From contig BPKO01000009.1 in assembly GCA_026005175.1 (NCBI GenBank), forward strand, positions 62,001 to 126,000: a stretch of DNA of 64,000 nt, written 5' to 3'. The stretch's first letter is position 1. Every line of letters starts with the position of its first letter. A program made the translations under genes and the position numbers. The notes under the pieces were generated by a model. It ran no database searches and was not told the origin of the DNA. It saw only the letters and a program-made list of their open reading frames with translations. Source of the stretch: Candidatus Tectimicrobiota bacterium (GTDB lineage Bacteria > Tectomicrobia > Entotheonellia > Entotheonellales > Entotheonellaceae). Positions 48,368 through 59,578 of the stretch are shown here, piece after piece.

Positions 48368-48527
48368 CTCTCTTTCCTCCTCTGCGGCGGTGCCGGCGGC
48401 CGGCGCGCCTTTGCCCTTGCGCGTCCCCGCCGGCTGCCCTATCCTAGCGCAAGCTGCCTTTCTTGCAAAGGCCAGACTTTCCCTGGCGCGAAAAAAGTAG
48501 CCTGTCCCCTTTTTGGAGGAGCGGCGC

Positions 48528-50264
48528 ATGAGGCAGGCAGGACCCTATGCGGTGGTGTGGCCGCGCGGCAAGAAGGCCGTGGCCTTGCGGCCGCTGGCCC
48601 GGCGTCTTGACACCCTGGCCGGCAAGACCATTGGCCAGCTCTGGGACTACCTCTTTCGCGGCGACGAGATCTTCCCCTTGCTGGAAGAGGGGCTCTCGGC
48701 CCGCTTCCCCGGCGTGCGCTTCGTGCGCTACGACGTCTTTGGCTCTACGCACGGTGCCGAGGAACACCGGGTGCTGGCCGAGCTGCCGGCCAAGCTCAAA
48801 GCGTACGGCGTGGATGCCGTGATTTCCGGCATGGCTTGCTGAGGCAGCTGCACGCCCGCCGTGCTGCGGGCCAGCGCCGTGGCCGAGGCGGCCGGGGTGC
48901 CCACTTCTTCCCTGGTCTGCGAGGGCTTCCTGCAGCAGGCCGCCACCACCGCCGCCGGCCTGGGCATGCCCACTTTGCCCACCGCCCTGGTGCCGGGCCA
49001 CGTCGACGTGCAGACGCCAGAAGAGCTGCGCCGGCACGTGCTCACCGTGACTCTCGAGGAGGTGGTGCGCAACCTCACCACCGCGCCGGCCGAGGCCCAC
49101 GCCGAAGCCGAGCCGCCGCCGCAGGAAGTCATCTTTCGCGGCAGCTTCGAGGAAGTTAACCGCTTCTTTTACGAGCAGGGCTGGAGCGACGGCCTGCCCA
49201 TCGTGCCCCCCACGCGAGACAAAGTAGAAGCCTTCCTGCGCTTTACCGACCGCGACGCCGCGGAAGTGCTCGGAGTGCTGCTGCCCGACAACCGCCAGGC
49301 CACGGTGTGGAACGTGGCGGTCAACGGCGTCATGGCCGGCTGCCGCCCGGAGTACATGCCGGTGCTGGTGGCCCTGGCCGAAGCCATGGCCGACCCGACT
49401 TACGGCGTCGAGCACAGCGGCAACACCCCGGGCTCGGAGACCCTCATTATCCTCAACGGCCCCATTATCAAAGAGCTCGGCTTTAACTACACCCAGGGGG
49501 CCCTGCGCGACGGCTTTCAGGCCAACACCAGCATCGGCCGCTTCTGGCGCCTCTACTTGCGCAACGTCGCCGGCTTCCTGCCCCACCGCACCGACAAGGC
49601 CACCTTTGGCAACACCTGGCGCGTGGTGCTGGCCGAAAACGAGGAGGCCTTAGCCCGCATTGGCTGGCCGCCGCTGAGCGTCGAGCGCGGCTTTGCCGCC
49701 GGCGACAACGTGGTGACCATTGCCCGCTACACCGGCGGCACGGTGCTGGCTTCGGCATTTGGCAGCACGGCGCAGGAGATTCTGCCTTACCTCGCCGACG
49801 GCCTGGCGCGCCTGGTGGCCTGGGAGCTGTGCTTCACCGTGGGGCTGGCCACCGGCACCCAGAAGCCGCTGCTCCTTCTCACTCCGGTGCTGGCCGAGAC
49901 GATTGCCCGCTCGGGGTTTTCCAAGCAGGACGTGAAGCGTTTCCTGTACGAGCACGCGCGCCTTCCTGCCTGGAAGTTCGAGCGCTACGTGGGCGAGTGG
50001 ACGAACCTGCTGCCGGGCCACCCGACGCTGGCCGAGCTGGTGGCGCGGGGCCAGGCGCCGCCGCAGTTTGCCACTTCGAGCGATCCCGAGCGGCTGGTGC
50101 CCATTGTCTGCGAGCCCGACGACTTCCAGGTGGTGGTGAGCGGCGATCCCCTGCGCACCAACGCCTACGTCTTTGCCCACAACGGCCTTTTGGGCTTTCC
50201 CACCAGCAAGGCGATCCGCCTGCCGGCCGCCTGGAAGCGCTTGCTGGATGAAGCAAGGAAGTAG
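48528..50264 (+). CDS. UGSC family selenoprotein with in-frame UGA (Sec105)
   Basis: ATG 48528 has GGAGGAG 6 nt upstream. The frame meets a TGA at 48840-48842 and continues open to 50264, giving 578 residues if the TGA is read as selenocysteine. Around it the sequence is SGMAC-U-GSCTPAVLRA, the signature of the UGSC (seleno)protein family known from metagenomic selenoproteome surveys. The N-terminal part (about 1-185) is the UGSC domain (LAGKTIGQLW, FPGVRFV, VPTSSLVCEGF). The rest (about 205-578) starts FYEQGWSDGLPIVPPT, a block seen with this family; its function is unknown. U-G-S-C is a CxxC-like redox motif, so a thiol/selenol redox role is likely. A GC hairpin begins 11 nt after the UGA. 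selD is in the same window. Confidence 0.9.
48854..48871 (+). promoter_or_regulatory. Candidate bacterial SECIS element of the UGSC gene
   Basis: GCCCGC (48854-48859) pairs with GCGGGC (48866-48871) around the loop CGUGCU. The loop begins 17 nt after the UGA and has a G at its second position, which fits the bacterial SECIS rules I know. The loop ends in GUGCU, as in the hairpin after the selD UGA. Confidence 0.7.
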
Positions 50265-57135: not shown

Positions 57136-58326
57136 TTACAGGCACACTTTGAGCGCCTGTTCCACGTCGGCCAGTACGTCCTCGGTGTCCTCGATGCCGG
57201 CGGCGTAGCGCACCAGGGAGTCGCTGATGCCCAGGCGCTGGCGCTCTTCTGGCGTCAGCTCGTAGTACGACATGAGGGCTGGCTGCTCCACCAGGCTTTC
57301 TACGCCGCCCAGGCTCGGCGCGATGTAGGGCAGGCGCAAGGCGTCGATAAAGGCGCTGGTCTGACGCAAGTCGCCGGCCACTTCGAAGCTGACCACGCCG
57401 CCAAAGCCGCGCATCTGGCGGCTGGCGATGGCGTGGCTGGGATGGCTTTCGAGTCCCGGGTAGTAGACGCGCCGCACTTTGGGATGGCTCTCGAGGAAGC
57501 GGGCCAGGGCCATGCCGTTGGCGTTGTGGCGCTGCATGCGCAGGGCAAACGTCTTCAGGCCGCGCAGCAGCAAGTAGGCGGTGTGGGGATCGGTAATGCC
57601 GCCGAGTACCCCTTGCGCTTCGCGCAGGGCGGCGATGAGGCTGGCGCTGCCGGCCACCACCCCGGCCAGCAGGTCGTTGTGGCCGCCCAGGTACTTGGTG
57701 GCGCTGTGCATCACCAAGTCGATGCCGTAGTCAAGGGGGTTCTGGTTGTAAGGGGTGGCAAAGGTGCTGTCGATCATGGTGCGCAGGCGGTGGCGGCGGG
57801 CGATGTCCGCCAGGCGCTCCAGGTCGACCACGTAGAGGTAGGGGTTGGTCGGCGACTCGGAAAACAGCAGCCGCGTGTTTTTCTGGATCGCTGCCTCCAA
57901 GGCGGCCATGTCCGCTGGCGGCACCACCGTCACTTCCACGCCCCAGCGCCGCAGCATCGTGTCGCAGAACTGCCGCGTGCGCCGGTAGACATCGGCGGTG
58001 ATGATCATGTGCTGGCCGGGCCGCAACATGGTGAGCAGCACCGAGGTGATGGCGCACATGCCCGAAGCCCACAGCAGCGCGTCATCGGCGTGCTCGAGCT
58101 CGGCCAGCTTGCGCTCGGCCGCCTGCACCGTGGGATTGCCGTAGCGGCCGTACTCGCCTTTTTCGATGCGCCCTTCTTTGAAGTCGATGAGCTCGGCGGT
58201 GTTGCGAAACACGTACGTTGAGGTCTGGTAAATGGGCACGGTGAGCGCGTCGCCAAGGCGCTGCCGGCGCTCGCCACCGTGCACGGCGCGGGTGCTGATC
58301 CCTTGCGGTGGTTTCCCTTGCGACAC
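57136..58326 (-). CDS. Cys/Met metabolism PLP-dependent enzyme (cystathionine gamma-synthase-like)
   Basis: This enzyme has 396 residues. The PLP lysine is Lys211 in [30 protein letters not shown] and [16 protein letters not shown] are the trans-sulfuration family blocks, and the C-terminal [17 protein letters not shown] is typical of cystathionine gamma-synthase/lyase. The GTG at 58326 has GGAGGG 7 nt upstream; the longer frame is unsupported. It may make cystathionine, homocysteine or selenocystathionine. Its position beside selD is noted, but selenium specificity is not shown. Confidence 0.93.
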
Positions 58327-58415
58327 CAGCCAACCCTCCAAAAAGAGGCCTCTCCCCTTCCCTGGCAGTGCGGTTGTGGCGGTATTGACGTGTGCTGGAA
58401 AACACGGGGAAGCGG

Positions 58416-58431
58416 AAAAGCCCCGGCTTTT
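58416..58431. terminator. Intrinsic terminator-like hairpin between selD and the PLP enzyme gene
   Basis: AAAAGCC (58416-58422) pairs with GGCTTTT (58425-58431). It lies downstream of selD on the minus strand with a short T-run; on the plus strand a T-rich stretch follows as well, so it could act in both directions. Confidence 0.5.
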
Positions 58432-58528
58432 TAGCACTTTTTTTAAGTGGTTGCAATACGCCACAAATCAATCCACTGTCCGCTACGGCCGGACCCTCCC
58501 CGACGCCGCGGCGGCTCGAGGGCGCAGG

Positions 58529-59578
58529 CTACGGCAGCACGACGAGCTCGGCCGGCCCGGCCTCCACTTCGCCCACCACCGCTGCGGCGGAGACGCCGCG
58601 CGCCTGCAAGGTGGCCACCAGCGCCTCGGCCTGCGCCGGGGGCAAGGCGATGAGCAGCCCGCCGGAGGTTTGCGGGTCGAACAGCACCCGCACCTGCTCC
58701 GGGCTCAGGCGGGGATCGAGCTGCACGTGCCCCTGCGTGTACTCCCGGTTGCTCACGTCGCCGCGGGTGAGGTAGCCCCGCCTGGCAAAGTAGAGGGCCT
58801 CCTCGAAAACGGGGATGGCGGTGGCGCGCAGGCGCAGGCGCACGCCGCTGGCGCGGGCCATCTCCCAGGCGTGGCCGAGCAGGCCGTTGCCGGTGATGTC
58901 GGTGGCCGCATGCACCCCGTGCGCCAGCATCGCCTCGGCTGCCACGTCGTTGAGAGTCCACATGCTTTCGGCCACCCGCGCCACCAGCTCCGGGGTGCCC
59001 TTGCCGGCTTTGAAGGCGGTGGTCAGAATGCCCGTGCCCAGCGGCTTGGTGAGCACCAGCCAATCGCCAGGGCGGGCGCCGGCGTTGGTGACCACGCGCT
59101 CGGGGTGCACAATGCCCGTCACCGCCATGCCGTACTTGAGCTCTTTGTCGGTCACCGTATGGCCGCCGATGACCGCCACCCCGGCGGCGGTGGCGCGCTC
59201 CTGGCCGCCTTGCAGGATGAGGGCCAGCCCTTCGGGGTCGAGCTTTTCCGGGTAGCAGACGATGTTGAGCGCCGTGAGGGGCTTGGCCCCCATGGCGTAG
59301 ACGTCGCTCAAGGCGTTGGCCGCGGCGATGCGCCCGTAAGTATATGGGTCATCGACGATGGGGGTAAAAAAGTCCACCGTCTGCACCAGGGCGAGCTCGT
59401 CGCTGAGCCGGTAGACCCCAGCGTCGTCGGCGGTCGACGTCCCCACCAGCACACGCGGGTCGTGCTGCGGTGGCAACGAAGCCAGCGCTTGCCCCAGCAC
59501 CGCGGGGCTCATTTTCGAGGCTCAACCCGCACAGGCCACGAGGCTCGTTAGCTTCCACTGCTTGGCTTTGGCGCGCAT
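58529..59578 (-). CDS. selD: Selenide, water dikinase SelD, itself a selenoprotein (Sec19)
   Basis: SelD makes selenophosphate from selenide and ATP for selenocysteine and selenouridine synthesis. ATG 59578 has AAGGAG 5 nt upstream. The frame meets a TGA at 59524-59522 and continues to 58529, 349 residues in all, the normal SelD length. The residues around it are VACAG-U-ASKMSPAVL; Sec19 aligns with the catalytic Cys17 of E. coli SelD and Lys22 with Lys20. Downstream motifs include TADDAGVYRL, VDFFTPIVDDPYTYGRIAAANALSDVYAMG, GGHTVTD and FDPQTSGGLL. A GC hairpin follows the UGA by 13 nt. No selA, selB or selC is in the window. Confidence 0.96.
59491..59508 (-). promoter_or_regulatory. Candidate bacterial SECIS element of selD
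   Basis: GCCCC (59508-59504) pairs with GGGGC (59495-59491) around the loop GCGGUGCU on the minus strand. The loop begins 18 nt after the UGA and starts with G, meeting the bacterial SECIS rules I know. It shares GUGCU at the loop's 3' side with the UGSC gene hairpin. Confidence 0.72.

Follow-up and report, generated by a model that had tools for sequence, protein, structure and literature searches.

A reading frame on the forward strand of a 64,000-nucleotide stretch of DNA from a Candidatus Tectimicrobiota bacterium (the window) is interrupted by one TGA codon, raising the questions of whether it encodes a single selenoprotein, as the first-pass annotation had claimed, and what such a protein would do. 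The frame started with an ATG at 48528 and ended with a TAG at 50262-50264, giving 578 residues with the sole in-frame TGA at 48840-48842 (Table 1). When this TGA was read as selenocysteine (Sec), the UGSC signature claimed for the junction, AC-U-GSCTP, was recovered, and the ribosome site described for the gene was located as GGAGGAG ahead of the ATG. A scan of named prokaryotic genomes detected 79 homologous loci, 58-68% identical along practically the entire protein, mainly in betaproteobacterial metagenome-assembled genomes (MAGs), along with some Chloroflexi, Acidimicrobiales and others. As the search patterns had back-translated residue 105 as Cys, the scan itself did not favour TGA. Nevertheless, TGA was present at the codon equivalent to 105 in all of the 79, with the alignment extending on both sides. 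Homologues ending at residue 104, named by the annotation as evidence against its reading, were not seen.

Table 1. Features of the UGSC-PPT locus in the window (PPT, family name coined in this study)
Feature	Position	Strand	Remarks
UGSC-PPT selenoprotein gene, 578 residues	48528..50264	+	reading frame and homologue comparison
Shine-Dalgarno-like GGAGGAG	48515..48521	+	6 bases 5' of ATG; seen in sequence
UGSC domain PF24696, residues 9-184; predicted Rossmann-like alpha/beta fold	48552..49079	+	
UGA codon 105, read as Sec; in the model between strand 97-101 and helix 109-121	48840..48842	+	
Putative SECIS-type hairpin, 13 pairs	48847..48880	+	48854-48859 pairs with 48866-48871 as inner stem; apical loop at 48860-48865 contains G
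Cys108, invariant second residue of U-G-x-C; proposed resolving Cys	48849..48851	+	
C-terminal PPT domain, residues 196-578, opening with motif GWSDGLPIVPPT	49113..50261	+	unmatched in Pfam, NCBIfam and PDB
Cys272, invariant Cys of the PPT family (VMAGC)	49341..49343	+	
selD with its own in-frame UGA at 59522-59524 (VACAG-U-ASK)	58529..59578	-	Sec machinery of the genome

The 34 bases from 48847 were able to form a hairpin of 13 pairs 3' of the UGA. In 62 aligned sequences, 93.7% of the cells were paired, compared with 21-50% when the partners were slid, and three of the pairs varied on both sides. The covariation in this alignment was modest, with a small excess over shuffles because the stem was nearly invariant. 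The synonymous constraint provided a stronger test. Among 193 conserved degenerate codons, the lowest synonymous entropy fell on exactly six consecutive codons, 109-114, all within the hairpin and including TTG for Leu, for which CTG was the commonest codon across these genes. Most paralogues with other peptide sequences also had a G-containing apical loop approximately 20 bases 3' of the UGA. Taken by itself, the window sequence had an unremarkable RNA fold z-score, as the whole region is GC-rich, and the assignment of a putative SECIS element rests on the comparative constraint.

The genome was found to possess the machinery for Sec insertion, the lack of which had been the other observation named against the reading: tRNA-Sec (76.5 bits), SelB (391 bits), SelA (638 bits, in tandem with SelB) and SelD (379 bits) were all detected. 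That the UGA is a genuine stop giving two separate proteins, or that the gene is a decayed pseudogene, has practically no likelihood: the table 11 annotation does split the gene at 48842, but the same UGA and both halves are retained in every one of the 79 relatives, the codons of the hairpin are the most constrained of the gene, and the Sec machinery is encoded in the genome. Sequence comparison confirmed the gene as a single 578-residue frame and gave good support for reading its UGA as Sec; the gene is genuine and typical of a selenoprotein family that is already known.

SelB was over the cut-off in 13 of the 15 UGSC carrier genomes tested; it was split across contigs in a genome with 35 copies and without a clear copy in one 2.0 Mb genome. 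The window carries two selenoprotein genes approximately 8 kb apart, the UGSC-PPT gene and selD. A SAM-II riboswitch at 58421-58482 on the reverse strand, scored at 45 bits and barely over the gathering score of 44, precedes a gene at 57136-58464 for a PLP enzyme of Cys/Met metabolism.

The N-terminal residues 9-184 matched the Pfam UGSC family PF24696 with an E-value of 1.3e-29 (103.9 bits against a cut-off of 25), whereas the NCBIfam equivalog NF041046 gave 50 bits, below its cut-off of 125 bits. Judging from these profile scores, the protein belongs to the broad Pfam family and not to NF041046, and it is considered to represent a divergent subfamily: it has the same UGSC motif with Sec and 176 N-terminal residues matching PF24696, but carries AC-U-GSCTP instead of GD-U-GSC and has the PPT domain. 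The PF24696 match, along with the UGA in all relatives and the constrained hairpin codons, upheld the family and the Sec reading given by the first-pass annotation, while the Cys forms that it expected to align at position 105 did not appear, every copy seen in the listed genomes being a Sec form. In marine metagenomes, 21 Cys and 255 Sec forms of UGSC have been reported (PMC2398784).

Seven UGSC genes over the Pfam cut-off, with one TGA each, were found in the same assembly, and four other genomes of the same small phylum had 4-7 matches each, with TGA in every full-length one. The 15 genomes behind the named loci had 2-35 matches each and 187 in total, numbers that may be too high owing to strain mixture or misbinning, as the carriers are MAGs. 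The matches listed in these 15 genomes had one TGA each and included no Cys form. Some genomes contained 25-35 copies, the 35 matches being in one betaproteobacterial genome. In contrast, the family occurred in only 3 of 274 genomes evenly drawn from the class, one of which was the centre of the draw. The UGSC family is rare, but it is strongly expanded in the genomes that have it. In a published survey of 5200 genomes, 26 organisms had a total of 33 UGSC genes (PMC5029168); the record selenogenome has 46 genes of all families (PMC12013277). The numbers found here are large when compared to both, and would rank some Betaproteobacteria among the most selenoprotein-rich bacteria. As standard gene calling splits every such gene at the UGA, the system is easily missed.

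The first-pass annotation had described the large C-terminal region as being without known function. Residues 196-578 indeed matched no sequence family in Pfam, NCBIfam or PDB, and the PPT profile gave nothing credible against PDB. The region is now recognizable as a near-constant companion of UGSC. In seven genomes, 64 of the 68 UGSC copies had a PPT domain or gene no more than 2 kb away on the same strand, mostly within 100 bases; it was fused or downstream in 37 cases and upstream in 27. These results showed that PPT is a near-obligate partner of UGSC, either fused or encoded by a neighbouring gene, which defines the co-expression needed to see activity. As early as 2008, UGSC was noted to occur fused to a conserved domain without a name of its own, listed as 'Unknown_1' (PMC2398784). 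Nineteen diverse PPT members had invariant residues in common, one of which was a Cys (Cys272 here). The structure of PPT modelled alone (pLDDT 84.1) gave no confident fold match; the top weak ones were class I fumarase, chorismate mutase and Toblerone folds with Z of about 5 or below, the values for class I fumarase being a Foldseek E-value of 9e-3, TM of about 0.3 and VIA Z of 4.8. On the basis of this model, neither a known nor a new fold is claimed for PPT.

The UGSC domain itself showed a relationship to selenoproteins of known chemistry. The GrdB model TIGR01917 was matched weakly by 14 of 27 UGSC members (best, 1.4e-7). True GrdB and PrdB-like genes were taken from genomes of the phylum of one Chloroflexi locus (L033), and hhalign aligned UGSC to the C-terminal Sec domain of GrdB (96%, 2.2e-9) as well as to PrdB-like (90%, 1.5e-6), placing Sec on Sec and GxC on GxC in both. 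The controls with reversed or column-shuffled GrdB gave at most 1.6%, and the same alignment was still obtained with 87% when four motif columns were masked in both profiles. The pattern common to UGSC and GrdB/PrdB was DAVxxxxxU-G-x-C...ExxGIP. Sec was located at 346-347 in the GrdB genes fetched here, in agreement with position 350 of 436 in GrdB of Clostridium sticklandii (PMC3091704). These profile comparisons supported a remote homology between the UGSC domain and the Sec domain of GrdB/PrdB, which narrowed the statement that no function was known.

The UGSC protein and GrdB (glycine/betaine/sarcosine reductase selenoprotein B; TIGR01917, TIGR01918) have in common the Sec domain, with U-G-x-C followed by a helix ending in ExxGIP, but the UGSC protein lacks the N-terminal region of approximately 310 residues of GrdB, and its partner is PPT, not GrdE. 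PrdB of D-proline reductase (TIGR04483) is likewise short, contains Sec and has the same local pattern, but only about 55 columns align. As a single sequence, the UGSC-PPT protein scored 14.9 and 11.7 bits against the GrdB and PrdB families, respectively, below their cut-offs of 65 and 300. PPT as a GrdE homologue was rejected at the sequence level (0.1% between PPT and the GrdE profile), and the NCBIfam family scan, by which PPT was compared with PrdA, gave no match. As PPT had no detectable relation to GrdE, classical pyruvoyl chemistry was not supported.

Since the nucleophile of PrdB/GrdB is retained in the UGSC domain together with the second Cys and the sequence pattern around them, we propose that the protein may be a substrate-specific reductive-cleavage selenoenzyme of two domains, with PPT as the substrate-side partner; the probability of this reading is estimated to be roughly 0.5. 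The link to GrdB/PrdB was not found in the literature searched, which does not prove that it has never been described; as far as this literature goes, three points are new: the link, the near-obligate partner missing from the catalogues, and how far the family has expanded with Sec forms only. For UGSC, a family known since 2008 without function, the tie of its catalytic domain to GrdB/PrdB supplies a concrete, testable chemistry.

The genes around the 79 loci bear on this proposal. A thioredoxin-reductase (TrxR)-like gene with a CAxC motif was located downstream on the same strand of the fusion gene in eight loci of several lineages, with an extra PPT gene intervening in one of them, and members of this TrxR-like cluster were found nowhere else in the 79 loci. 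Its paralogues were directly beside selB in three betaproteobacterial genomes (G009, G010 and G018), a possible sign that they serve selenium metabolism in a dedicated role. No such gene was found beside the gene in the window, whose genome has only a 35% identical relative elsewhere. By sequence inspection, BUG/TctC-type solute receptors were named in 62 of the loci, a weak enrichment because such receptors are abundant in Burkholderiales generally, and the other neighbours included genes for CoA-transferase, PrpD, enoyl-CoA hydratase, acyl-CoA dehydrogenase and similar proteins. The gene in the window is divergent from hydantoinase A/B genes and lies near those for a class III aminotransferase, an aldehyde dehydrogenase, a TRAP receptor and a zinc alcohol dehydrogenase. 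Reductive cleavage is favoured by the neighbours for transport and catabolism, the TrxR-like redox donor, the PPT partner and the homology to GrdB/PrdB, whereas the absence of the TrxR-like gene from most loci and the lack of a detectable relation between PPT and GrdE argue against it.

The structure of the protein was predicted by AlphaFold2 (pLDDT 87.7, pTM 0.87). In the model, strands and helices of the UGSC domain alternate to give a Rossmann-like fold, and Sec105 lies in a strand-to-helix turn; the fold search gave generic Rossmann domains, including PurE, as the closest solved folds. The single-sequence search of PDB returned zero matches, and the UGSC profile gave nothing credible against PDB. 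GrdB was absent from the structure match lists for the UGSC domain, which does not exclude the likeness to GrdB. The predicted fold would argue against a Trx fold of the UxxC domain and disagrees with the Trx-like fold proposed for UGSC in 2008 (PMC2398784). This has a consequence for the idea of a generic thiol-redox protein of the peroxidase, disulfide or methionine-sulfoxide type, in which a Trx-like fold is combined with PPT as an accessory reductase or docking domain. Such a protein would be in line with the UxxC motif, the 2008 proposal and the TrxR-like neighbours in some loci, but is unlikely given that the predicted fold is closest to PurE and other Rossmann domains, that the profile matched GrdB/PrdB and not thioredoxins, and that the occurrence of tens of paralogues in a genome, next to catabolic genes, better suits substrate diversity than housekeeping redox.

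The position of the nucleophile at the strand-to-helix turn of a Rossmann-like domain would also suit an isomerase, lyase or racemase-type enzyme, in which a covalent Se adduct is released by elimination with no net reduction. The catabolic neighbours are rich in isomerases and lyases (HyuA/B, PrpD, enoyl-CoA hydratase and the mandelate racemase family), and PPT has the resemblance to class I fumarases mentioned above. As this resemblance is weak, and the invariant second Cys of GxC together with the TrxR-like neighbours points to a redox cycle, we regard an enzyme of this type as doubtful.

For reductive cleavage, the following course can be drawn. SelB and tRNA-Sec would read the UGA as Sec under the direction of the hairpin, a well supported step. 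The profile comparison and the predicted model support a UGSC domain in which the nucleophile would stand at the start of the helix with the second Cys three residues on. By analogy, Sec may attack a substrate carbon that carries a leaving group, the substrate being small and probably of the carboxylate type; the selenoether would be resolved by Cys108 to a selenyl-sulfide, which could be re-reduced by a TrxR-like flavoprotein or thioredoxin. A corresponding mechanism has been proposed for PrdB, in which Sec attacks the substrate carbon to give a selenoether, a Cys of the same protein converts it to a selenyl-sulfide, and an electron-transfer protein reduces the latter; glycine reductase uses thioredoxin reductase and thioredoxin (PMC3091704). 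C-F cleavage has been proposed for a relative of GrdB (PMC10838667). PPT may bind or activate the substrate, taking the role of GrdE/PrdA, and the many UGSC-PPT pairs per genome would correspond to many different substrates.

The UGSC-PPT protein probably belongs to a large family of selenium enzymes that cleave bonds in small molecules. More tentatively, UGSC-PPT might constitute another reductive-cleavage system dependent on selenium, one that has so far escaped recognition, alongside the glycine and proline reductases. Such a system would combine one catalytic Sec scaffold with a diversifying substrate domain, would reach up to 35 Sec genes in one betaproteobacterial genome, and would probably have many small acids, natural or xenobiotic, as its substrates.

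Several irregular copies of the two genes were also observed. In the same assembly, the UGSC gene on contig 6 (86441-86949) had an apparent frameshift at around position 111 of the family model besides the UGA, with the adjoining PPT gene open, and on contig 2 (L025, 8872-9919, reverse strand) the PPT gene beside one UGSC paralogue was apparently split in two frames. A few PPT genes had no listed UGSC nearby, as seen in two related genomes at C1:270669-271664 (G001) and C1:2482848-2483846 (G002).
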